DNA from: Chromera velia
Taxonomy: Eukaryota > Sar > Chromeraceae
Length of the DNA stretch: 20,958 bases
Assembly: GCA_018398765.1 (NCBI GenBank)
Contig: JAHBMJ010002244.1
Coordinates: 1 to 20,958, forward strand
Direction of reading: 5' to 3'
Shown: in pieces, positions 4,244-20,657 of the stretch
How positions within the stretch are numbered: position 1 is the stretch's first letter
How the letters are laid out: every line of letters begins with the position of its first letter
The notes under the pieces: generated by a model
The model's input: the letters and a program-made list of their open reading frames with translations, nothing else
Told to the model about the DNA's origin: nothing
The model's database searches: none
Program-made: the position numbers and the translations under genes

Positions 4244-6274
4244 ATGTGGCGAAGCAGCCAATCTCAAATTTCCGATGACACCAGGACCGACCGTTTGTTT
4301 GAGAGCTTCACCTATGACTGCTTGAGAAACGCGACCGTTACCAAGGACAATACGCGAGCACAGCAATGGGGGATCCAGAGATCAAGGCGATGGCCCCTGT
4401 TATGGGTCTTCCAAGATCCCCGGCTGGAAGAACTCTACAGGGTGAGTCTTCGGTCTTTCCATCTGTCCGTCTGTAAGCTTCCAAAGAAATGTTGTGCCTG
4501 TCATGTTTCATTCTCTGGATTTCTATATATGCATGGATTGGTCTCTTGTCTGACCTGGCTGCGCATGATTAAAAAAAATACGCTCAGTGAGTTAGAGTGT
4601 ATAGCAGATGAATCACCACCCATGCAGGCACAGCTGCATAAATTTGCATCTGAATGCACGTCATCAGGCTGCTTTACGAGTTCACAGTCGCATTTGTACG
4701 CGTGTCAGAGAGTTAGAGCCTCTCTGTGTTCAGTTGAACCTCCCAAGATGCTACCTACTCCAGGATTGTGTGGGGGGATACATGTGTTGTAGAGTGGGAT
4801 ACATGTATTGTAGTGTGGGATACATGTATTGTAGTGTGGGATACATGTATTACACACGCTGCACTGTGACCACGCACTAATGAGCATATGATCTGTTCAG
4901 GAACTGGGGATGAGATCGGCATGTAACCGAATGTGGATGATGGTCAGCTGGGTCGTCTTCTCAGAGCGTTGGTTGGTTGGTTCGTTACACCCTAGCATCC
5001 TCAACAGTTTTTCAATGCCGGAAGGATCCTATCTTGCAGAAGTTCCTTGTAGAGAGAGGTATTTGAACGCTCTCGTCTCGTCTCACTTTGCTGCAAGCAA
5101 AGCGGGGGGCCTATCTGTCTAGCGTTGACCGCTTTCTCTCACCCCATCAGCCATCTCATTTCTTCCCGCCCCTTCCTCTCAATCTCTCTTTCACTTTACA
5201 CCCAATCAATTTGACCGTGAAGGGCTGCGGCCTGTTCCACATTCTCGTTCGCTTTCTTCTGTGCAAAGATGTTACGAAGCAGTCTTGTTCATTTCTTGCA
5301 CGCATCTCCGTACAAGCTGTCAAAGTGTCAAAGGGTTTTGGCCATCTTGTCTTGCATGTGTGAATGGGCGGGCACGTATCTGCCTGCAGGCTCTGGCTGT
5401 GTTCAGTATCAACTTCCTCGCGTTCGTCATCAACGCCCCTCTTGGGTATGCGCAAGTCGGGAGGCGCTACTTCGGACGGGCCGGGGTCAGTCAGTCAGCC
5501 TGTCTGTCTGCCTGTCTGTCTTTTCTTCTGGGCATCTTGCCGGGAGTTCTGTCTACCTTTCGCTTTGTGCATGTGTGTGTGTGTGTGTGTGTGTAAGTGA
5601 GTGAGTCCACTTGATGGCCTCTCTGTAGGCCATGAAGCCGGTGCATCAAGGAATGAGCAAGCGGTCCCAAAAAAGAATGGAGGAAAGAGGCCAATGTGCT
5701 CGTAGACCGGGACCATGCAGGCATGCCCCTCTACAGTAGCTGGGCAGATGGGTGAATGGAAGTATTTATGTGCTGTCGAGTTTCGCCAGTCTTGTCCCAT
5801 CTTTTTCTTCTCTCATCAAACTTTTCTATTTGGAGTCTCCGTGTCCCCCCTTTCTGTCTGTCTGTGCGCATGCAGGTCTTGGGCCTCTTTTTTTGCATTG
5901 TGGGCGCCCTTCTGGTCATAGTTGGCATGCACATCCAGAGGAGGAGGTTTGAAAAGGTGGGTGACTAAATTTAGCAGAGAGGGATTGGAAGTTTAATGTA
6001 GCAGAAGAGAATGTCAAGAGAATGTGTGGAAACAACAGCGAGGGCTTTCTGCCTTCGTTGAAATGAAGAACCTGTGAAAAAAAAGGAAAGCCGACCGAAC
6101 AAAGAGAGATTGTCTGTCGAGTCCTTATTGCTAGACGAAGATGTGCGTAGCGTACGAAACTGGTTTGTCTGTGTATGGGCTGCGTGAGACAATGTGTTTT
6201 CTGTAAATTGTGTAAGTGAGCGTGTGTGCGGTGTGCATACGAGTGTGGGATTATGTTGCTTGCCTGTGTATTTG

Positions 6275-6324
<50 letters not shown>

Positions 6325-6331
6325 TGTGTAC

Positions 6332-6375
<44 letters not shown>

Positions 6376-7586
6376 GACCTCTGTAGCTGTGCTCGTGATG
6401 GATGCTTGCCGGAGCACCTGTTTGTCGTCTCCTTCGATTTTTGGGTCCTGATTTCTACTAAACACTCGCTCTGCAACTTCCCCCCTGGAGGACACTTGCA
6501 GACAGACATTCAGCCCCCCCTGAGAGCTAGACCCGAATGTCTCTGAGTTGACCCCTCATTTTCTTCATGTCTCTTCGCGATCATCTTTTTTCTTTTGCGT
6601 GCAGAAGACGTTCGGTTCTGCAATTGCACAGAAGAGAGAACCAGAGGAGGGCATTGACAAGGAAAAGCAAAAGGAAGACCTCGAGGAAGTCGGTCGGCTT
6701 GGAGGTCTAGTCTAGACTGCAAATTCAGCTTTTGCTAGTTTCAGATTTCCTATATTCATTTTCATCTCCTTCCTTTCGTGCCTCTGCCTGCCGATCTCTT
6801 TCCATCCGGATAGATCCTCTGCTGCCGCAACGGAACTCGACAGACACACTTTTACAGTCGGATTCATTACACCTCTCGCACCTTTATCGTCACATTCGAT
6901 TACGCACTTCGTTCGCATCCGGCCTTCTTGTGGGTGAGTGATACCTTTCTGTGTTCATGTGATAAATGCAGGGAAAGAGGGAGCAGGTTGCTTCTCTCTC
7001 GGTGACACCTGTAGAAGGAGCAAACGAAACGTCGGAGACCACAGCGACGACAGCGAATCCGCCAAAGGAAAAGGGAATCGGCACAGCAGTGGTCCGTTGG
7101 GGCAAGTCTCTGAGGAAATTGACGACACGACGAGACAGACCGAAGAAAAACAGTGCGACGGGGATGGAGGGAAAGGAAGGGGCAACTTCGTCGGGGAGGG
7201 GACTAACCGGGCTAACAGGGGAGAGGGCATCAGAGGGGCGGGAGTGGAAGAGTCGTAAAGAGTGGGGAGAGTGGAAAGGGGGTTCTATGGACCCACAGGT
7301 GCGGCAGCACTGGAGGAACTTGTTCATTATTGGAGTAAGTGGGTGGGTGGGTGGGTTGGTCAGGCGGAAAGATTAAGTAGTGTGTGGATCTCTTTTTCTG
7401 TTCCTCTACCTGCGTATCTGTCTGTCAGTACGATGGGCAGGCACACGGCAGATATCCTTTTCAATGCTCCCAGAAAAATCCTCTCCCTCGAACAGCAAAT
7501 TCATGCACTTTCACTTTAGCTGCAAATTGCAGGCTTCTGTAATACGGATGAAAGAAAAGTGTCGCTCACTCCACTCCATTCTCTCC

Positions 7587-7624
<38 letters not shown>

Positions 7625-8489
7625 ATCGCGCAGCTGACAGGGACTTTGATTTCTGCGGTCTCGGCCTTCACCTTCGCCGTCGCTTCTTTCCGTTGGCATG
7701 TGGAAGAGGAGTTCGGGACTGGTAGACGGAAAAGTGTCGCCGCCAGTGTGGCTTCTCTTGTCATTGTATGGATAGCCACAGGTACGTGGAGGACTGAATT
7801 GTTTTTGGAGTCGGGAGGTTCTGAGGAAGACACTGTGCTCTCTGATTTACTCATGAACCTCTTGCAATGAGCCGTCAAGTCTGTGTGTGTGTGTGCGTGT
7901 GTCTGTGCGTGCGTGCGTGCGTGCATGTGTGTGTGTGTGTGTGTGTTGTGCGCAAATGAATATTTACCTAAGTGCATGTGTGTGATGATTGTATCATCGC
8001 GTACGTGTATGTATGTGCGGGTCCCCCCNNCCTCTGTGCCCCCCTCTGTGTGTGTGTGTGTGTGTGCAGAGACTCTGAAGGACGTCGCATTTTTGTCTCA
8101 CCTCTATCTTGTAGTCTTTGCACTCTTTCAGCTTTCTTGGGATTCCACAGTCAGTCTTCTTTGTGAATTAGTGGAAAAAGTCCTCTTTCCTCCGGCTCTT
8201 CTTTTCAAATCTTCCCCCGATACATTCGAATTCAATCGTGCCTATTTGACCCACCGACTTTCGTTTAGGTCCTGTCTAAGTCTTCTCTTGTATGTGGAGA
8301 TGGGGCTTCTGCTTCCCGCGTTCCGGCTCGGAGGACCCTCTGATACCCGAATGTGCTTAGAGAGTAGACGGGGCACATTAAGAATCACTGTATCTTTCTT
8401 CGCGGGTGTACTTCACAAAGTTGGGTTTCAAGATACGCTGAACTGCGCGATTGCGACTGAGGGCATTAGTGGATTGTAATTCTGTTTCT

Positions 8490-8523
<34 letters not shown>

Positions 8524-8642
8524 AGTTTGTTGGTATGGCAGCCAATGCCTCCCAAGACCGTCTCCAGCGTATGTTCATTGTGACGATTTTTGTCGGTTTC
8601 CTTCTCCTAGCCACGCGGAGCTATGAGCGAGCACAGCGACAG
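4244..8642 (+). CDS. kinase gene, N-terminal membrane sensor exons
   Basis: The first exon (66 codons) is hydrophilic and ends FQDPRLEELYR before GTGAGT. Hydrophobic segments follow: one joined across 4901-4942 and 5390-5485 (MWMM plus ALAVFSINFLAFVINAP), one in 5876-5956 (VLGLFFCIVGALLVIVGM), one across 7334/7634, one at the end of 7634-7781 (SVAASVASLVIVWIAT), one in 8070-8149 (HLYLVVFALFQL) and one in 8526-8642 (MFIVTIFVGFLLLA). That makes six helices. Between helices 2 and 3 is a ~150-residue basic, Gly/Lys/Glu-rich loop (6605-6688 and 6972-7334) with no recognised domain. The exon at 7634-7781 ends in phase 1 and is completed by 8070-8149. The ligand is unknown. The donor of the 4901 exon could instead lie near 4976, adding part of a further hydrophobic stretch, or that exon could be skipped; both keep frame. 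Confidence 0.7.
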
Positions 8643-9183
8643 GTAAGTTGCTCGCTTTCTTTCGGTGTCCGTGCATTGTACTGACTCAACTCTGCAATCC
8701 TCTAGCAGCACTGCCTGACTGAATTTACGTCCAGCATGAGATATCAAAAAAAAAAGTTGAGGCAATGAGGGGTAAATGGGGGTCAATTTGAATATGTGAG
8801 GCAAAGAGGAGGAGTCAGAGGAAAAAGAAAATCAGTACAAAAACAAGGGGAAAGTGAGGTGTCAACAGTACTCATCCAGTTAATGACTCTTCGACAATTC
8901 CTGTGCAGCTCCCGCTTCACCATCGTAATTAGTCTGTATCTACTTTGCTTTCTCGCTCACTTGCTTGCAAACCGACCCCATATTATCGTTCGATCTGTCT
9001 TTTTCGGTGCTCGTGCAACTTTTTTGCCGCCAGGCCAGTCTGCCTATCTGTTCTATGAGCTGATGAGCGTGAACCAAATTTTACAAAAAGGCGTCGCCCA
9101 CGCTATTTTTCTGCCTTTCTTTTTTGTTTCTTTTTTTCTTGTTAATTTCTTCGTGCCTTCGTTTGTTTGTTTGTCTGTTTCCG

Positions 9184-9214
<31 letters not shown>

Positions 9215-10725
9215 CTGTTTTTTTTTTTTCTCTTCTTGTCGTTTGCCCATTCTTCTTTTCTGAGTCTCTGTCCGTCTGTGTCTGTCTGTCTGTCTGTGTT
9301 GGGATTTTTCTGCAGACACTTGCGGTGTTATGGGATTCCAAAAAAAACCAGAACCTGGCTGCTGAGACGGGAAAAGAGCTCTCACTGCAGCAACGTTTCA
9401 CTCTGAGCCAGGCACTGTTCTTCCAAAAGGTTTGCTTCTCTCTCTGCTCGTTCGTTCTATTCTTCCACTATCTACATTTCTTTCCTCCCCATCGTCTATG
9501 TGTGTGTGAAAGAGAGAGAGAGAGAGTTTCAACACGTGTTCACTTGTGTGTGCGTGTGCGTGAGTGTACATGTGTTTTTCTGATCGACGCTGCCTGCCTG
9601 TGTTTCAGAAGTTGAAGGGACCTCTCGATGGGCATCCGAAGGAACCCACAGCTGTGTATGTACTCAGATGATTTTCTAGTATCCCGATTGCTTGATTGAT
9701 TTCCGCACAGCCTTTCACTCACTTACTCAGTGGGTGTGTGATGGAATGAGAAATTGAGTGAGTGACCAGATGACTGAAGGATTACTTGAATCAATCGATC
9801 AATTAATGCCATGACATGATGATGCAGATTGTGCACGACCTCAAGACTCCTCTATGGTAAGTTTGAGAGTCTACAGAGACACATGAAGAGGATTCATCAT
9901 TCCAACTTGAGCGATCCTGTTCCTCTTCTTCTCTGCCCCTTCCTGCACTCCCTCTCTGTTTTTGCCAATCGAAGGTCCAGAAAGCACTTCAGTCTCTCAC
10001 TGTCCACCTGCAACTTTCTTTCTTTTTCATTTGACTCGACCTGTGTTGCAATGTCTTCATCGTAAAAACTCCCACACAGCGCAGAGGAGACAATCTCTCG
10101 CACGCGTGTGCAGTTGTTGCTTTCTTGTCATTGAAAGAATGTGCGTCTGTTTTTTTCTCGTGACTGATCGCATATATGTATGGATTCATGCCCTCATGTG
10201 TGTACAGGTCGATCATGCATGCATTAGAGAGCGTGAGAGAGTTTTGGGCCCAGAAAGCGCAACTGCATCACGAGCAGCAACAGCAACAGCAGCACAAAGA
10301 ACGTGCGAAGGGAGCAGGAGAGAGAGTAGCGGTCGAGGCGTCCGAATTTTTCCTCAATGATCACCGAGAAGAGAATGCGATCTTCTTGGAGGATCATGAC
10401 AGAATTTGGGTCCGTCAGTAGACCTAGCGACAAACTCTTTCGTTCCTCCGCTGACTGACCTCCTAGGTTGATAAGTGCGTGAGTGAGTCGCTGTCTGAAT
10501 GTGTGTAGATGTCTGTTTGGATGTCTGTGCATCTATTTGAGTTTCTCTGTGTTTGTATGGGTGTACTTGCCGGAGGCGATTCGACTTGTGCATAACTCGC
10601 ATTCAATCCAAAGTGATGGCATTTTAACTTTGACATCATCCTGTCCTCTCCATGAATCTGTTTTTGCATTTCTTTCTTTTGGACTCCCATTCGCTCGGTC
10701 CCTCCCTCCCTGTCTCTTTGTCTCT

Positions 10726-10775
<50 letters not shown>

Positions 10776-10826
10776 CCAATGCTACAAGCAGGCCTCGCAT
10801 CCACCGTGTACATGCAGGTCTGTCTA

Positions 10827-10863
<37 letters not shown>

Positions 10864-12526
10864 TGAATGAATATCGCCTGACCTTGTGATCCCACGATCG
10901 AGAGACCACCTGGCCAGATTGCTGCCTGCCTGCCCGCCTGACCCTTTTTGTTTTTGGCCCAGTGGGCTAACTGACGCCGCACCCTCTGTCTGTCTGGATG
11001 CTTGAGTTCCCCTCTCACTGGTTGATTCGTTGAATGCTTCTCACATTGTGTTCAAGCACTTGCTTCGCTCTCGTTTCTTGCTTCCTCGTTTGTCTCCTTC
11101 CTACCCTGCCTACCAGAATCTGGCGATGAATTTGTTGGAAGTCGCACGGCTGAAATTTTCGGATTCTGGAGACGGTGGCGGCGACGAGGAGACTGTGCAA
11201 CTAGCGTGTGGCATCAATTCGGTCTGGCGGTGTCTGGAGGTCAGTGAGGGCATTAATTCTGTTTTGGGGGGGGGGGTTGGGACGTCCGGGATAGGTTGAA
11301 CCGAGGGGGCAGTGTAGGTAGGGAGGGTCTGTTGGTGCTCGTAAGGAAAAAACCAAATTAAGCAGAGGGAGAGGAAATGGGCAATTTCCTTGAGCGATTG
11401 CAGTGGGATGTTTGTACATTGTTCTTAAGTCTCGTCTTCTGCTCTCTGCAGTCTGTCGGCATAATGATGACCCCTGCTGGGAAGATGAAGGGCGTGGATG
11501 TGGAAATTTCAGACGCACGTGGCCATCTTCTTTCGACTTTTGGGACTTTGGAAGGGATGGCATGGTTCGATGAGACGCGACTTTTGCAGGTTAGGGGGGC
11601 TCAGAAGTGTCCGTGAAAGAGATGTCTCCTTCATTCTTCCTCGGAGACGAAGAGGACATTTCCTTTTGTCATCTTCTTCTCCCATATTTTCTGCATGGGC
11701 TTCTCTCTGTAACAATTTCTTTCGTACTCTCTGACGCATTTGCACAGCAGAGCCTACACAGATGCAAATTCATACTCTGTACCCTGGAAGGACAACTCCC
11801 TCCTTTCAAGCTTTCTGCACTTTTCTCACCTTTCTGTGTTACAAAAGTGCCACCTCACGCTTACATTCTTGGTGTCTGATTGTCTGCTCTTACTGCCCCC
11901 TGCGTGCAGGCAATCACGTGAGTCTGTCAGCCTGCATGTCGTCACTTTGTCGCCCTTTTCGTCGGACCGTCTGTCTGGCAGTGTGTCGGCCTGTTGATTT
12001 GCTGATCGGTTGCTCGGTTCCTCGACCCATTTAAGAGATGGATGCATTTGCAAGTCTTTCGCTTCGTTTGCGTGATAAATCAGCCTGACGGAGAGTTTGC
12101 CCCTCTAAAACAGCCGAGAGTGAACATACTCTCCTTTACTAGGAGGCCCCCCTCTTTTTTCGCTTTTTTCGACCAAGCTTCTGTTTTCCCTGTCGTGCGT
12201 ACCGATCAATCATCCTTTCTCCAAAGTTACGTCTGGGCATGAGTGAACTGAAATCGACCTTTTGCTTTACCCAGAAGCGTGCACCATCCATGCGTCAGAA
12301 ACTTTTCACCCCTTGCTCTTTGCTTACCCTGCGGTCCTTCTGTGCATGCAGAAACGGCGTCTCAAATGGAGTAAAGGTCTCTTTGAATACCCTTACTTTT
12401 TTTTCTTTTGAGCAGGTTTTGTTTGCGTCTGGAAAGTCTGGGTCTTTTCGTTTGTCTTCGTGCAAGTGATTTGCTCATCTTATTTCCAGTTATTTTTCCG
12501 CTTCTGTCTGCTTGTGTCTCTTTCCT

Positions 12527-12568
<42 letters not shown>

Positions 12569-13734
12569 CGTATGCGTATGCGTGTATGCGTATATTGATT
12601 CCATTTTTTATTTCTTGGTGTCATTTTGTTATGTCACTCTCTCTCTCTGTCTTCCTTTTTTCTGTCTGTCTTTCTTTTTTCTGTCTGTCTGTCCGCCTTC
12701 CTTTTTTATTTCCCTCCCTTTATTTTCCCCTGCTCTTTTGCTTGTCCTCCCTCTCACTCTCTCTCTCTCTCTCTCTCTCGGCTTCTTTGGCGCGCACGAT
12801 CTCGCTCTTTCACAGGCATTCATTCATTCATGAATCCATTCGTCTATACACGCATAGACTCCGCACACACACATGTTCTGCCTGCAGTATACGAAGGGAG
12901 GTGGCAGTGTAGTTGTCCGGCTGCTTTCTGAAAGGGAACCATTGGAGTCTGCAGAAGCAGAAGGGGGACGCCCGGGCATCACACTGCAAACGCATATGAC
13001 TGACCCTCTCGGAAACAAGGAGGCAGAGGCCTTTCTTGCAGCTGCGGGGCTCGTGTGCGGGCCGCTGCAGAAGATTGTAATAGAAATTCAGGACACAGGG
13101 AGAGGAATTCCACAAAGCAAAATGAAGTGAGTCAGATGGACGTCTTAGTTCGGCGCGCGAGCCCAATCTTGTGTTGAAAGCAACTTCTGTTTCAAACTGG
13201 CAGACTTAATAGGGATGTTGTAACGTAAGACTCTGTGTTTGAGTACCGCAAAGACCTGCGGTCCAATCACTTACATTGAATAAGGAAGATCTCGTAATTG
13301 CCCGGCTCTCTTCTTCGTGTGCGGTTTCAATTTCAATCAGTGATTGAATGAATCGCTTAACCATACATCCATCTATCCATGCAGAGAGATCTGATGCGAG
13401 TACAGCCAGGTGAAGGTTCAGGACGCAGCTGTAGGGTCGGGTCTGGGTCTGTCGATCGTGAAGGCAATCATGAAGGCCATGGGGGGGACGGCAGAGGTCA
13501 GAAAGAGCAGAGACACCCAGAATCAGGGAAGCAGTTTTCTCTCTTCCTTCTCTTCTTTTTTTCTCACGTTCTCGTTCTCTTACTGATCGCCCCTCGTTGC
13601 AAAGGCGTTTCTCTTTCGTTCGCTGGATCTCTATAGGATTCAAGCGTGTTGTAGATATCACGAGTTGCGTCGACTTGGAGTCGGGTTTTGTGAGCCTGTG
13701 ACTACATGCTCATACATCTATTCGCAAAATTGTA

Positions 13735-13773
<39 letters not shown>

Positions 13774-16700
13774 ATTTCTTCTGAAGAGGGGGTAGGCACC
13801 TCCCTGTATCTCTCCTTCGTCTGTAGAGCCCTCATCCCGCGGTCCGCCTTGGACGAATCAAAGGAGGACCGCATGAGCCTTGCCATGCCTGCGAGAGCGG
13901 CATCTCCTCTGGATGAAACCTCTATTGACTTGGGCTTTAGTGGAGGCGGGGAGGAGGAGTGTGATGACGCGATGTTCACTCTCAGGGTGGGTGGGTGGGT
14001 GGGTTGGGAGGAGGCTGAAGGCTCCTCTTTTGATGTATTCATGTGCGTTCTAGTTACTGAACTGAAAGTTCTTTTGACTTGACTTTTTGATGCTCTGGAA
14101 ATTTGCCAGAGTTGATTTCTTTCCTTATTTCCCCTGCAGTCCACCTTTCTCGTCCTGAAGGACGGTCCTCCGCCTCCTTTGTCCTGTGGTCCTGCATCAT
14201 CTTTCTCGACAGTCGACTGACGCACGCAAAAAGGAAAAGGGGCGCGGAAGCTATTGAGGATTCTGCATGCTACCCCCAGGGCCTCCAATTTATGCACACA
14301 ATGTTAGGAACAAGCTGCCTGACTCTTCTCAAGTTCGCTTTTGGGGTTTGCTTCTGTTTTTCTCTTTTTGTCTGTCTGCATGTGGGTACGTGCAGCCCGG
14401 TCGTCGGTGTCCTCCTCACCGAGGGAGTGGGTCGCCTACTGGAACAGGAGGTGCAGAGGTGAGTGAGAACAGTCTTTGGTGGTTTTATATCGATTCAATG
14501 CAGTGGCAGCGATCTGAATCCTCTGCTTGTTTGAATGCACCAGGAATCACTCACACTTCTCGATCGATCTGAATTGGCAGACCTGTCCGATACACGATTG
14601 ATATTTCTCAGGCAAAGAGCAGAAAACGTCGCTTGCTCAATTCAGCTGAAGGAAAGTAACCTGACGCGAGACACCTTCGCTTTCATTTGACCTCACTGTC
14701 TCCATCCCTCTCCATGCAGACCTCCTCAATGTTCAGGGGTGTGGATTCTCTTCCCACGTTGATGAGCCGCAAGAGCAATCAGAAGAAACCTCGAAGAGCC
14801 TCCATTTTTTCACGCTTAGGCGCCGTGCGGACCGTCTCGAAACAACCGGGAGGACAGACGCTTACCGAAGCCTCTGCAAAGGCTGTGTGGGAAGCTCTCT
14901 GTAAACATTCAGAAGCAGGCCGACGAGAAGACGTGTGGGAGGGGCTTCTGGCTCTTCCTCCGTCGATACTTTCTTCTCTGCTTATACAGGTGCGAGAAGG
15001 GCTGCTTACGCTTTTGCCCTCTCTTGTGATTTTCGTCCAGTCTCTTCCTCTTCGTTCGATATTTGCCTATCAAACTTTTCGAATAAGCAATTTGTTTGGT
15101 ACAAAAGGAGAATCACAATACACCAGGAGGCTGAAAGTGCAGGGACAGAAACAGACAAATTCGGAGCAAGACCTATGTCTTTGGCTGGCATACACAAGCA
15201 GGTCGTACCTCAACAAATGTAGATCTGGCCCTTTTTAAGTGCCTGCGCTTCCTAACGGCGTACGTATGTATTGCTGAACAATCCTCTTCCTTCCTTCCTT
15301 CCTTCCTTCCTTCCTCCCTTCCTCCTTCCTTCCTTCCTTCCTTCCTTTCTTCCTCCTTCCTTCCTTCCTTCCTTCCTTCTTCCTTCCTTCCTTCCTTCCT
15401 TCCTCCCTCCCTCCCTCCCTCCCTCCATCCCTTCCTTCCTTCCTTCCTTGATTGACTCCTTCCTTCCTTCCTTCTTTCCTTCCTTCCTTGATTGACTCCT
15501 TCCTTCCTTCCTTCGTTGCAGGAGACAGGTGCCGCCATCGTGATTGTAGACGACCAACCGATGATGCTGTCAGTCAGTCAGTGATTCGAGTTTTCATTCA
15601 GTGAGAGTGACAGTAGGATGGATCACCGGGCAGTTTCTTCTCTTGCTGCTCAGTTGCCTTCCCGTCGGATGAGCTGGAGGCCTGGGTCTCTCTGCTTGTT
15701 GGCTCTGCTGCCTTGTATTCCACTCTGTTTTGTCGCAACACTTGCCATGGAGTGGCACGCACCCTTGTTCCCCTTTCCCTGTACATAAGTTGAAGAAGAA
15801 AAGATGATTGCTGTCTGAATCGTTGAGGTTGCGTGCAGTCACGTGTTGAAGGACATCGCCCGCAAGGTCGGCTTCCCTCCCGAACGGACGCTCGCGTATG
15901 AGGACCCAGAGGTCGCTGTCGCTGACGTTGTGGCCCTTGTGGGGGGAGCTCTCCCTTCGGGTCAGATGGCGGCTGTTCTTGAGGGTGTCAGGGCTGTGCT
16001 TCTCTTGACAGACATGCAGATGGGAGACGTGAGCGGTCTCTCTCTCGCACGACAAGTCAGGGAGGGTGCAGTTGAAGCAGGCGCAGTAGTAGGACCGTTC
16101 CCCCCCCCTCCAGCCCCAAACAACAGCCAACCGCCTCCTGATGGTATGAGACGTATTGTCAATTCCTCCGCGGGTAATGGGGACCCCTCTGTGAGTGTCG
16201 ATCCCATCTCTCTCACTCAGCCATCTCAGAGAAGCGCGGCATTTACTTCGATGACACAAAGAAGCGGGGCGTTCACCTCAGTCACGCACCGCTCGGCGTT
16301 GACCGCTGTGACCCACCGATCCTCCATCACATACTCAGCAGCTCCAGAACAATCGCAAATCTCCGCGACGCCAGGTGAGCCCATGACAATTCTAGACGCC
16401 GCAGCTGGACAGTACATTTCAGGTCCGAAGCTCTCACCTTCGTTAAAACCAGAGCGGCGTAAGCGTAATCTTTCTGACATAGAGGAAGAATCCCCGTCCC
16501 CCCATTCTCATAAACCTTCACCTACCTCTGTTGCTCTGGAGCTCCCACCCCGGAGAGTTTCCATTGCACAGTCAGCAGGCTCCAGGAAGCAGTCACCCAA
16601 AGCACAACAAGGAGAGTGGGCAGTCAGAGTCTCTAACCCTCCCCCAGAGCCTCCCGTGATTCGTTGTTGCCTCCTCTCCGCACAGATCCGCGGAGGAATT

Positions 16701-16871
16701 CTGGAGAGGCACCCGGAGGCGGAGACGGTCACAGATGCTGTGCTCGAGAAGCCGCTCTACCCTGCTGACCTCGCAATGCAGTTGCGCTTGCTGGCTGCTG
16801 CAGTACTCTCTAGACAGAAGAGAAAGAACAGCTCCATTGCGGAGATCTCGGAGTCCCTCAACTTTTGGTAA
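4244..16871 (+). CDS. membrane hybrid histidine kinase with C-terminal receiver domain (multi-exon)
   Basis: This is a sensor kinase predicted to autophosphorylate on a DHp histidine and transfer phosphate to its own receiver. Best exon set: 4244-4441, 4901-4942, 5390-5485, 5876-5956, 6605-6688, 6972-7334, 7634-7781, 8070-8149, 8526-8642, 9316-9429, 9609-9653, 9828-9856, 10208-10409, 10776-10817, 11117-11239, 11452-11589, 11910-11917, 12352-12376, 12888-13126, 13204-13216, 13401-13496, 13774-13986, 14140-14211, 14396-14458, 14720-14989, 15522-15580, 15839-16871. All phases join in frame, giving about 1,330 residues. Visible marks are about six membrane helices (residues ~75-400), the H-box with His near 459, an N-box TNGVSNGVKYT, G1 DTGRGIP, G2 GSGLGLS, and a receiver with Asp pair ~977/978, phospho-Asp ~1045, Ser ~1267 and Lys ~1291. 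The start at 4244 has a purine at -3; an in-frame ATG at 4187 is the alternative. Exons 4901, 6605, 13204, 14140 and 14396 are the least certain. The stop is TAA at 16869-16871, or TGA at 16982-16984 if a last short intron is removed. Confidence 0.85.
4775..4852. repeat. 21-bp tandem repeat, four copies
   Basis: Units starting GGGATACATGTATTGTA begin at 4775, 4796, 4817 and 4838, an exact 21-bp period. The array lies in the first intron of the kinase gene, shortly before the acceptor at 4900. Confidence 0.9.
6279..6374. repeat. compound (CT)n-(GT)n microsatellite
   Basis: A CT run of about 28 bases is followed directly by two GT runs broken by ACACTCT. It is intronic, between the exons ending at 5956 and starting at 6605. 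The His-Thr and Cys-Val frames across it are repeat artefacts. Confidence 0.95.
7589..7621. repeat. (CT)n microsatellite at an intron 3' end
   Basis: An uninterrupted CT run lies 12 bases before the acceptor CGCAG at 7633 and probably serves as the polypyrimidine tract. Confidence 0.9.
7880..8067. repeat. (GT)n / (GTGC)n microsatellites flanking an assembly gap
   Basis: GT and GTGC runs at 7880-7945 and a TG run at 8047-8067 lie on either side of two N bases at 8029-8030. The second run abuts the CAG acceptor at 8069. The gap may hide a collapsed repeat, but it lies in an intron. Confidence 0.85.
8029..8030. other. assembly gap (two N)
   Basis: Two undetermined bases follow a run of C. They do not affect any called exon. 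Confidence 0.99.
8491..8522. repeat. (GT)n microsatellite abutting a splice acceptor
   Basis: A pure GT run ends directly in TGTCAG, and the next exon starts at 8526. Confidence 0.95.
9124..9300. repeat. pyrimidine-rich (TTTC)n and (CTGT)n tract
   Basis: A long T/C-rich tract with a (TTTC)n run near 9185-9212 and (CTGT) words near 9280-9298 precedes the acceptor TGCAG at 9315. Long Phe/Leu/Ser frames here are artefacts. Confidence 0.8.
9316..11239 (+). CDS. kinase gene, signalling helix and DHp (HisKA) exons
   Basis: 9316-9429 encodes a polar helix (TLAVLWDSKKNQNLAAETG) that continues in frame from the last membrane helix, whose exon ends ERAQRQ. 9828-9856 is a 29-nt exon carrying the H-box IVHDLKTPL; the His is the predicted autophosphorylation site. 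10208-10409 extends it with a Gln-rich insertion (CAA/CAG run at about 10273-10293). 10776-10817 and 11117-11239 encode the second DHp helix (NLAMNLLEVARLKF). The distance from His to that helix is about twice what is usual for a HisKA hairpin. An optional phase-neutral exon at 8880-8924 cannot be excluded. Confidence 0.75.
10731..10864. repeat. (GT)n and (CTGT)n microsatellites bracketing a 14-codon exon
   Basis: A GT run at 10731-10772 ends in GCAG just before the exon 10776-10817. The donor of that exon (GTCTGTC at 10818) opens a (CTGT)n run to about 10864. The small exon is therefore enclosed by repeats on both sides. Confidence 0.95.
11452..13986 (+). CDS. kinase gene, ATP-binding (HATPase_c) exons
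   Basis: These exons form the catalytic ATP-binding domain. 11452-11589 ends FDETRLLQ, the usual lead into an N-box. An 8-nt exon (11910-11917) and a 25-nt exon (12352-12376) then complete AITNGVSNGVK, and 12888-13126 continues YTKGGGSVVVRLL. The second half of that exon has the G1 box IQDTGRGIP. 13401-13496 encodes YSQVKVQ and the G2 box GSGLGLSIVKAIM. 13774-13986 has the G3-like stretch EEGVGTSLYLSF, then an acidic linker. The conserved Asn, Asp and Gly residues are present, so the domain looks active. The join between 13126 and 13401 is uncertain: a 13-nt exon at 13204-13216 keeps frame, and alternatives exist. Confidence 0.8.
12529..12780. repeat. (GT)n, GTATGC and (CT)n microsatellites
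   Basis: A GT run at about 12533-12565 passes into GTATGC words. T/C-rich sequence follows, with a CT run near 12757-12779. All are in the intron before the exon starting at 12888. Confidence 0.9.
13737..13770. repeat. (GT)n microsatellite abutting a splice acceptor
   Basis: A GT run continues directly into GCAG, with the next kinase exon starting at 13774. Confidence 0.95.
14140..14989 (+). CDS. kinase gene, linker exons between kinase and receiver
   Basis: 14720-14989 (90 codons, phase 0 at both ends) is well supported by a CAG acceptor and a CAG/GTGCGA donor. It has a basic region (SRKSNQKKPRRASIFSR) followed by a helical stretch leading to the receiver. 14140-14211 (Pro/Ser-rich) and 14396-14458 (Gly/Pro/Arg-rich) are in-frame candidates with CAG acceptors but low-complexity products. 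A further candidate, 14280-14345, has a CCCCCAG acceptor and a weak GTTTGC donor and is phase-neutral. The linker has no recognised domain. Confidence 0.5.
15287..15514. repeat. (CTTC)n / (CTCC)n satellite forming an intron 3' end
   Basis: About 230 bases of CTTC and CTCC words, with a GATTGACTC motif repeated near 15449 and 15489. The tract ends just before the GTTGCAG acceptor of the receiver exon at 15522. The Pro-Ser-Phe-Leu and Lys-Glu-Gly-Arg frames across it are artefacts. Confidence 0.95.
15522..16871 (+). CDS. kinase gene, receiver-domain exons with 194-codon insertion
   Basis: The receiver accepts phosphate from the DHp histidine. 15522-15580 encodes the first strand and acidic pair (AAIVIVDDQPMMLS). 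It joins 15839 in phase 2 to give HHVLKDIARKVGF. The phosphoacceptor Asp is at 16011-16013 in VLLLTDMQMG. The conserved Ser (LLSAQ, codon at 16677-16679) and Lys (EKPL, codon at 16749-16751) follow, so every key receiver residue is present. Between LSLARQVREG and PPVIRCCLL lies a Pro/Ser-rich insertion (about 16066-16647) with four ~10-residue repeats. The C-terminus is a basic helix ending SESLNFW. Confidence 0.85.
16227..16340 (+). repeat. coding ~10-residue repeat inside the receiver insertion
   Basis: Four units read QRSAAFTSMT, QRSGAFTSVT, HRSALTAVT and HRSSITYS. Adjacent units differ at many third codon positions (CAG/CAA, TTT/TTC, ACT/ACC, TCG/TCA, ACA/ACG) while the first two units keep their residues. 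This is the pattern expected of sequence conserved as protein. Confidence 0.75.
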
Positions 16872-18495: not shown

Positions 18496-18677
18496 TCACG
18501 GCACTGCTCTGTCTCCTCTCTGGTGCCTTGCCAGTGCAAGTTTGTCTGCCAATTCGTTGGGAACTCTGAACTTCCAGTCGTCCTCCCGGATCTTCTTCAC
18601 CTCTCCCTTCAGGGCCTCCAGGGCTGCATGCGTAGATGGAAGGAAGGAAGGAAGGAAGGAATAAAGGAAGGAAGGAA

Positions 18678-18710
<33 letters not shown>

Positions 18711-19053
18711 GAAGGAAGGAAGGAAGGAAGAAGGGAAGGAAGAAAGAGAAAAAGGAACAACCATAAGGTACGAAGGAAGCTAGCAAGGAAAGAAGCGGAA
18801 AGAAGAGAGGACAAAAACGAACAACGGAAGGAAGGAAGGAAGAAAGGAAGGAAGAAAGGAAGGAAGAAAGACAAGCAGGAACAACCATAAGGTACGAAGG
18901 AAGCTAGCAAGGAAAGAAGCGGAAAGAAGAGAGGACAAAAACGAACAAAGGAAGGAAGGAAGGAAGGAAGGAATAAAGGAAGGAAGAAAGAAAGAAAGAA
19001 AGAAAGAAAGGAAGGAAGGAAGAAACGAAGGAAGGAAGGAAGGAAGGAATAAA

Positions 19054-19086
<33 letters not shown>

Positions 19087-20657
19087 GAAAAAAGAAAGAG
19101 AAAGAAAGAAAGAAAGAAAGGAAGGAAGGAAGGAAGAAAGGAAGAAAGGAAGGAAGGAAGGAAGAAAGACAAAAAGGAACAACCATAAGGTACGAAGGAA
19201 GCTAGCAAGGAAAGAAGCGGAAAGAAGAGAGGACAAAACCGAACAAAGGAAGGAAGGAAGGAAGGACGATCGAAGGGATGTCAGAAGAGACTGGACAGTT
19301 TGGGGTCGGATTATTTGACGGACAGAAGGACAGACAGACAGACAGTGTCTCCGGGCAGAGAGGCAGACAGACACAGGCAGGCAGGTAGGCTGCCCTGTGA
19401 GAAGAAAATCCTTGCTCTTTGCGTCTGCCTGTAGCGCTGCTCGTGTCTGTCTACCTCTTTGTTTGTTTGTTTGTTTGTCTGTCTGTCCGTCTCATTACCT
19501 CGCTGTCTGTTGACGTTTGCGATTTTCTGCCTGTATGGATCCTTCTGCAGCCTCCGCTCTCGCAACCTAGTTGAGCGTCCCTAGCTGTGTCTGTCTCTTG
19601 CACTGCCGTGGCGGGCAGTTGTTCTGCCCACCCTCTCACCCGTCATCTCCCCCTTCCTTTTTCCCCTCACTTACCCACCTTTTTTGCATTCCTCAGAGAG
19701 TCCCCCTCTCGAAGCAGCTGTGCTCTTGGCGTTCCCCCCTTTCCCCTCCTTCTTCCTGTTGTGGATCGACCCTGCGTTTTCGCCTGACGCCTCACCTCCG
19801 TAATTCGACACAGGCAGGTCAACCCCCTGCGTGGCTGCAGCCTTGTGGCGCCCTCCTCTGACATCTGCGGGGAAGGGGATGGGAGGGGGGGTGGCGTGCA
19901 CTCAATTTGGGTTGGGGGAAAAAAGTTGTACGTAAACTTTCGGTGGAATAAAGTGCGGACAGATCGGTACAGGCCGGGCCTGGAAGCAGACCATGGGACA
20001 CTGAAAACACTAGAGCATTTGAGAATGAGAATAGAGGGCACAAGAGGGGGCATAAGAGGGGGGACGACTCATTCAATCATGCACTTTCACCCCTATCGAT
20101 CCACCATGCAGTCCATCCCGTCTGTCATTTCTCTCGAAGACGACACCGGTGCTCATTCATCGTCTCTTCCTGCTCTGCTGCATTCACACTGATTTGTTGA
20201 TTGAATCATCTCCCTGAGGTGTATACCCAGAGAGTTTGAAATAGAAAAGTCAGGATCACGAAACACCTGTGCGAAGATCTGCAACACAATCTTCTGTACA
20301 CACTTGCTGCACGGTACTATCGGACCAGTCTTTTTCATTGCATGTGTCTGCAGCTGGTGAGTTGAGATGAATGTAGGGCGTGTGCATCCGGGTCTACACC
20401 TCCAATGGAGACAGAAAGCATTGAGACAGAAAGCTTGAGCGGAACTGACGATCTGCGTGTGCTCTCCTCATCCTACGCGAACGGCAGAGAAGGTCAAAAA
20501 AAGAGGCAGCAGTCACGAATACCAATCCAATGCACCCCAGCGACGAGATCCACGGACAACGTCTGAATGTCTCTGAGTATCCACCCAGTCGACTTGACAG
20601 TCAGGCAGAGTGACCAACGAGCCGTGCAGCGGTCACATGCAAAGTCCCGTCTCCTCT
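18496..20657 (-). CDS. 3' part of an unidentified multi-exon gene
   Basis: I do not recognise the product. Candidate exons in transcript order are 20657-20536, 20347-20267, 19826-19675, 19566-19499 and 18623-18496. Phases join in frame throughout, and the stop is TGA at 18498-18496. The last three give GLRERRLQKDPYRQKIANV, then NRQRALEALKGEVKKIREDD, then WKFRVPNELADKLALARHQR and a short tail: a charged, probably helical C-terminus. Supporting signals are a GTAAGT donor after 19675, a GTAATG donor after 19499, and a TTCC-rich tract with GCATGCAG before 18623. The upstream pair is weaker. It has a good T-rich tract with GGCACAG before 20657, a CAG/GTGTTT donor after 20267, and two CxxC pairs (CDRC and CSKC). 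The acceptor at 19827 lacks a pyrimidine tract. The 5' end is not in the window. The last two exons are the surest part. Confidence 0.45.
18633..19265. repeat. (GGAA)n satellite with three copies of a 71-bp spacer
   Basis: GGAA and GAAA words fill the tract. A non-repetitive 71-bp unit beginning GGAACAACCATAAGGTACGA occurs at 18754-18824, 18878-18948 and 19176-19246, almost identical each time. The tract lies in the last intron of the - strand gene, where it reads as TTCC and leads to the splice acceptor at 18624-18626. The long Ser-Phe-Leu-Pro frames are artefacts. Confidence 0.95.
19321..19490. repeat. short (CAGA)n and (TTTG)n / (CTGT)n runs
   Basis: CAGACAGA words near 19330-19345 and 19362-19372, and TTTG and CTGT runs near 19458-19487, lie in the same intron as the GGAA satellite. 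No coding content is seen. Confidence 0.8.

Follow-up and report, generated by a model that had tools for sequence, protein, structure and literature searches.

A long in-frame insertion, probably constitutively coding, in the helix 3–strand 4 loop of a putative hybrid histidine kinase receiver from Chromera velia

The window considered here, a stretch of 20,958 nt from Chromera velia (GenBank assembly GCA_018398765.1, contig JAHBMJ010002244.1), is the whole of contig C2232 in the 177.8-Mb assembly that was searched. In this assembly, 11 matches to alveolin (PF12314) and 58 to light-harvesting families exceed their cut-offs, suggestive of a photosynthetic alveolate, although the alveolin model is not exclusive and also matched one of 14 control genomes (Caulobacter). 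The window's + strand carries a putative hybrid histidine kinase gene, the exons of which we infer to belong together, with all of their borders being drawn from conservation with paralogues: a protein search of the same genome found five further copies of the receiver exon (C4004, C1299, C1767, C2653 and C145). The features are as follows:

12352..12376, + strand: piece of a HATPase_c exon with the N box (NGVSNGVK), conserved in the paralogues; the upstream junction (about 11590 to 12352) is putative
12888..13126, + strand: HATPase_c exon with the G1 box (DTGRGIPQSKM) and donor GTGAGT, from paralogue conservation
13385..13496, + strand: HATPase_c exon with the G2 box (GSGLGLSIV), from alignment and a Pfam HATPase_c match (E 2e-6); in-frame TGA at 13392-13394
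13774..13990 (3' end approximate), + strand: end of the kinase catalytic domain (ISSEEGVGTSLYLSF), from paralogue conservation
14720..14989, + strand: linker exon between kinase and receiver, from paralogue similarity
15522..15568, + strand: receiver strand 1 exon (ETGAAIVIVDDQPMML) with the acidic pair at 15549-15554 and donor GTCAGT, from paralogue conservation
15839..16868, + strand: receiver exon, from helix 1 to the end of the domain and including the insertion, open in 6/6 copies; stop codon TAA at 16869-16871
16065..16109, + strand: 5' anchor of the insertion, GAVEAGAVVGPFPPP, with GPFP invariant in six copies; Ka/Ks 0.04 against C4004
16066..16647, + strand: block put forward in the preliminary description as a candidate exitron, holding conserved anchors at both ends
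16104..16616, + strand: variable core of the insertion (171 codons), Ser/Pro-rich, repeat-bearing and probably disordered
16614..16655, + strand: 3' anchor of the insertion, EWAVRVSNPPPEPP, with WAVR invariant in six copies; Ka/Ks 0.05 against C4004
16656..16805, + strand: receiver strand 4 to helix 5 (VIRCCLLSAQ...LEKPLYP), from paralogue alignment and Pfam

Upstream of the receiver, HATPase_c is recognized at 28.7 bits (Pfam cut-off 26.4), and the exon order of the N, G1 and G2 boxes is kept in the paralogues. Reading 5501-15502 in all three forward frames gave no HisKA match at E values up to 1; the exons in this region may be short. The window sequence is repeat-rich, with long (CTTC)n and (GGAA)n arrays at 15286-15514 and 18638-19168, the first of which lies inside the intron directly 5' of the strand 1 exon.

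The strand 1 exon joins the receiver exon across a GTCAGT...GTGCAG intron, and the acidic pair (DD, 15549-15554) is accordingly encoded separately from the remaining landmarks: the phospho-acceptor Asp (codon 16011-16013), a Ser in place of the Thr (16677-16679) and the conserved Lys (16749-16751). The preliminary description had credited the receiver with all of the canonical residues; this holds for the acidic pair, the Asp, the Lys and, by way of Ser, the Thr position, but four residues past the phospho-acceptor the usual Pro is a Gly. In CheY, the acidic pair and the Asp are 44 residues apart, and the Asp and the Thr are 30 apart; the corresponding spacings in the window gene are 63 and 222. 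With the interrupting block kept, Pfam Response_reg (PF00072) scores 21.2 bits and covers profile positions 1-67 only, whereas the score rises to 35.3 bits when it is left out (cut-off 30.2). A search of the Protein Data Bank with the joined receiver minus the block gave weak matches only, the best having an E value of 0.055.

Helix 3 and strand 4 of the receiver are set apart by a Ser/Pro-rich block of 582 nt (194 codons; 16066-16647, + strand) with no in-frame stop, bordered by GAGG/GTGCAG at its 5' side and by CCCCCAG/AG at its 3' side; its excision joins ...LARQVREEPPVIRCC... in frame. In these respects, the preliminary description is fully borne out, as is its remark that the internal repeats differ mostly at third codon positions: counted by eye, two 30-nt copies within 16227-16286 differ at nine sites, seven of which are third positions. 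The edges that it drew are defined by splice-like sequence and are not the natural edges of the insertion; the paralogues place the variable part at about 16104-16616.

In each of the five paralogues, a single open frame of 279-328 residues covers the receiver on both sides of the insertion point, and the insertion between helix 3 and strand 4 is present in 6/6 copies of the window family. (The paralogue search gave 15 matches, 11 of them from the window and the five copies; the four weaker ones, with E values of 0.046 to 7.2, were left out.) As each of the five paralogues reads through an insertion at this position without a stop, its presence is more than chance. On each side of its core is a conserved anchor, 5' (…AGAVVGPFPPPP) and 3' (…QWAVRVS.P), within which GPFP and WAVR are invariant in 6/6 copies. 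Between the anchors, the cores measure 171, 118, 144, 117, 109 and 145 codons and are almost unalignable; the DNA of the middle cannot be aligned even for copies with flank identities of 94% and 91%. The resulting Asp-to-Thr/Ser spacings across the family are 161-222, i.e. 131-192 residues are added. Outside the family, receivers L061, L062 and L051 of this genome have a W-V-like motif before strand 4 (GWVTRPDG, GWVIRPDG and QWAVFEE, respectively) that is like the WAVR anchor.

The substitution pattern is that of a translated sequence under constraint at its ends. Against C4004, the 15 codons of the 5' anchor show seven synonymous changes and a single nonsynonymous one, and the 14 codons of the 3' anchor show eight and four, respectively (Ka/Ks of 0.04 and 0.05 by NG86, the synonymous rate in the 3' anchor being near saturation); the receiver exon gives 0.17-0.27. 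Moreover, no stop breaks the reading frame in the 804 codons of the six cores, whereas the two alternative forward frames contain 48. The one scan made with the window family in other organisms, of viral contigs, gave no orthologue among 47 candidate stretches. A DNA search of the same genome with the block returned a single match, the block itself (simple repeats are skipped by this search), and at Pfam E values up to 10, it matches nothing except the receiver. An origin of the block as a mobile element or a foreign domain was weakly rejected, given the lone self match, the lack of a non-receiver Pfam match and the lack of a viral-contig relative.

The preliminary description had further proposed that the block is an exitron, alternatively spliced at 16065/16648 to yield either a compact receiver or one with a long loop. 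The length is indeed divisible by three, the block is stop-free with GT...AG ends, the acceptor is pyrimidine-rich and good by eye (it was unscored), and the receiver exceeds the Pfam cut-off once the block is gone. Weaker splice sites are a class-wide trait of exitrons, among which disordered regions are over-represented (according to the available part of PMC4484396); the block is like them in being stop-free, divisible by three, inside a coding exon and of disordered-type sequence, and it is unlike them in having a poor, unconserved donor and conserved protein inside. Using a matrix built from the 21 GT donors among 23 conserved exon ends of the six gene copies (two GC donors were excluded), the candidate donor GTGCAG scores -6.2 and ranks 44th of the 56 GTs in the exon, whereas the 21 inferred donors score 5.2 to 12.2, a gap that is somewhat flattered because the matrix was scored on its own training donors from one gene family. 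The two GC donors, GCAAGT in C2653 (L045) and GCAGGC in C1767 (L044), are both at the end of the G2-box exon and make up 2/23 of the inferred donors; GC-AG introns may therefore occur in this genome.

Nor does the GT-AG pair itself need a special explanation: with a GT in 16040-16110 and an AG in 16610-16656, the block could be spliced out without a frameshift in 14 ways, the proposed one included, and in the exon as a whole 962 pairs at least 60 nt apart keep the frame. By eye, a GT is present at the donor position in C4004 alone of the five paralogues, and C4004 has no AG at the acceptor position; conversely, an AG is at the acceptor position in C2653 and two bases off in C1299, both of which are without the GT; and C1767 and C145 have neither at the matching positions, although C145 has a GT one base away. 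Both dinucleotides are thus found in the window copy only (0/5 paralogues). The excised part would, in addition, take with it both anchors and their invariant residues, which are under purifying selection. On the combined weight of splice-site scoring, paralogue comparison, substitution pattern and pair counts, we disfavour the exitron and consider it very improbable. The block is instead very likely to be constitutively coding, judging from this sequence comparison, and on that reading, a splicing switch is unnecessary.

A different doubt concerns the window copy itself. The TGA at 13392-13394, in the G2-box exon, replaces a TGG (Trp) codon found in all five paralogues, and it may be a pseudogene lesion or a base error. 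If the former, the copy would be a decaying pseudogene, the insertion of which is now free of selection. This is a lesser possibility but one to be taken seriously, as the paralogues are unanimous at this codon; against it, the lesion is the only one among the exons compared, the Ka/Ks of the receiver exon against C4004 is well below one, and an assembly error at this base is possible. Synonymous divergence from C4004 (L042) along 15522-16805 and the G2 exon is a mosaic: the receiver core and the G2 exon are near-identical (10 synonymous changes at 121 sites), and the two anchors and the strand 1 exon are far more diverged (19 at 34 sites; Fisher p about 1e-8, for segments picked after the alignment was seen). 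One possible cause is gene conversion that has kept the cores alike in paralogues lying on different contigs.

Ser, Pro and Thr together account for a fraction of 0.37 of the window insert and 0.27-0.41 of the other five, and W/F/Y/C/I/V/L for 0.10-0.18 of the inserts against 0.30-0.35 of the receiver core; each insert has 2-7 SP/TP sites. Charge-hydropathy values of -0.11 to 0.03 are near the order/disorder line and not far into disorder. An AlphaFold model of the single exon, lacking strand 1 and computed from a single sequence, is poor throughout (mean pLDDT 46); the insert is mostly coil, with the lowest confidence over residues 101-205, which lends weak support to disorder. The preliminary description envisaged a disordered, phosphorylatable loop; from the composition, and with charge-hydropathy borderline, we take the core of the insertion to be probably an intrinsically disordered arm. 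How the arm has lengthened is visible directly: the C145 insert contains an exact tandem duplication (54/54 nt identical) and the window insert has 10-residue repeats, such that the loop has grown by in-frame tandem duplication in these two copies; the other four inserts have no comparable repeat.

An interruption at this place is not confined to the window family. Of at least 56 receiver matches in this genome, which also has at least 38 HATPase_c matches, 18/56 Response_reg matches end at profile positions 66-72, and in all 19 of the interrupted receivers (these 18 and one ending at position 80), strand 4 follows in the same frame after a stretch that is charged or of low complexity. In 46 other receivers, the Asp-to-Thr spacing is 30-107, and in 33 of them, it is 40 or more, i.e. 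at least 10 above that of CheY. The other two spacings are near-constant (acidic pair to Asp, 45-50; Thr to Lys, 19-22). These 46 distinct receivers represent 41 of 50 loci, with the six window-family copies outside the set; as the search scored 50 of 139 first-look candidates, they constitute a sample and not a census. Spacings were taken by regular expression, with correction by hand in L002, L028 and L052; L063-L066 add no new entry, as they overlap L011, L024, L017 and L023, and L005, L021, L027, L031 and L049 have no entry, the sequences of L031 and L049 ending short of a full receiver.

In the bacterial receivers measured, this spacing is short. Among the best 80 of 366 bacterial relatives, the 66 that could be measured have Asp-to-Thr spacings of 28-36 and none reaches 40, in a control whose profile was made from seven other receivers of this genome and whose ranking by E value favours uninterrupted domains and is, therefore, biased to short loops. 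Of the 14 unmeasured ones, 11 have no long gap by eye, and the other three were left out of that look. A bacterial origin of the long loop was rejected on these 66 spacings, with the same bias attached. In an exon-by-exon search of this genome, no Hpt domain exceeded the family cut-off, a search that a split Hpt could escape; there was one sub-threshold match, and a search there for the motif H..K[GA] on both strands gave one unconvincing match.

When other receivers of this genome were searched against the Protein Data Bank, histidine kinase 4, histidine kinase 5 and CKI1 were among the best of the 60 of 121 matches listed. Histidine kinase 5 (4euk) matches profile positions 1-73 only and yeast SSK1 (5kbx) positions 1-70, such that both break near the same place as the receivers described here, whereas histidine kinase 4 (7p8c) accommodates the 108-position profile in 110 residues and has no comparable insert. 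The closest known parallel is in fungi, for which the available part of PMC8510515 reports helix 3–strand 4 inserts in all Ssk1 receivers (mean 38 ± 16 residues, Pro/Ser-rich, the insert not being visible in the yeast cocrystal) and inserts of at least 10 residues, in this loop and/or the helix 2–strand 3 loop, in 31% of hybrid-kinase receivers. The window receiver shares with the fungal Ssk1 and hybrid-kinase receivers the loop and the eukaryotic setting, and it seems to resemble them in Pro/Ser-rich composition and predicted disorder; its long acidic-pair-to-Asp spacing, given above, is likewise reminiscent of the fungal helix 2–strand 3 inserts. It differs in scale, with 131-192 residues added and GPFP and WAVR anchors in the window family, and in frequency, 33 of 46 sampled receivers being lengthened in this loop alone, as against the fungal 31% for either or both loops. 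From this resemblance in sequence, the feature appears to belong with the fungal inserts as an extreme variant: it occurs in a different lineage of eukaryotes, reaches a greater length and, among the receivers sampled, is found more often. Cytokinin and ethylene receptor homologues in chromerids are mentioned in the part of PMC7700396 that was available; our literature search, which reached few subscription papers, gave no earlier report on chromerid receiver loops among the matches listed.

Overall, we conclude that the block is very probably an insertion translated constitutively as part of the protein. It lengthens the helix 3–strand 4 loop in what we take to be the C-terminal receiver of a photosynthetic alveolate's hybrid histidine kinase. 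As to what it does, the helix 3–strand 4 loop of a receiver is on the face opposite the phosphorylation site; because of this, phosphotransfer could continue with a long loop in place, and the loop could grow without breaking it. The available part of PMC8510515 gives the loop the same location and offers target binding by the fungal inserts as a hypothesis. By analogy, the disordered middle may tether or dock partner proteins, or serve for Ser/Thr phosphorylation, and its variability would give each paralogue its own partners. We regard docking as the leading functional idea, at rather less than even confidence, and a passively tolerated spacer as its equal rival. In this alternative, the loop has no partner and simply tolerates extra sequence, slippage and tandem duplication having lengthened it in repeat-rich DNA; the unalignable middles between copies with nearly identical flanks and the recent exact duplication in C145 are in keeping with it, as is the report, in the available part of PMC12457776, that both tandem repeats and indels are commoner in longer internal exons, mostly encoding structure-less regions. 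A spacer accounts less readily for the conserved anchors at both ends, for the lengthening of just one of the three spacings in the 46 receivers and for the fact that none of the six window-family copies is without the insertion, the shortest having 109 codons between its anchors and the longest 171.

Should the docking interpretation be correct, the genome would offer a natural series for examining the docking hypothesis put forward for fungi, its receivers having similar cores and loops longer by anything between 0 and about 190 residues. More speculatively, and we think this on balance doubtful, the loop may have become a hypervariable disordered arm in this alveolate lineage free to diverge in each copy while the cores remained near-constant, perhaps by gene conversion. 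The loop, rather than the receiver face, would then determine signalling specificity, and this would have arisen separately from the fungal inserts. Finally, receivers with such loops score below the Pfam profile cut-off or break across the profile, and the two-component systems of algae such as this one may, therefore, be under-annotated.
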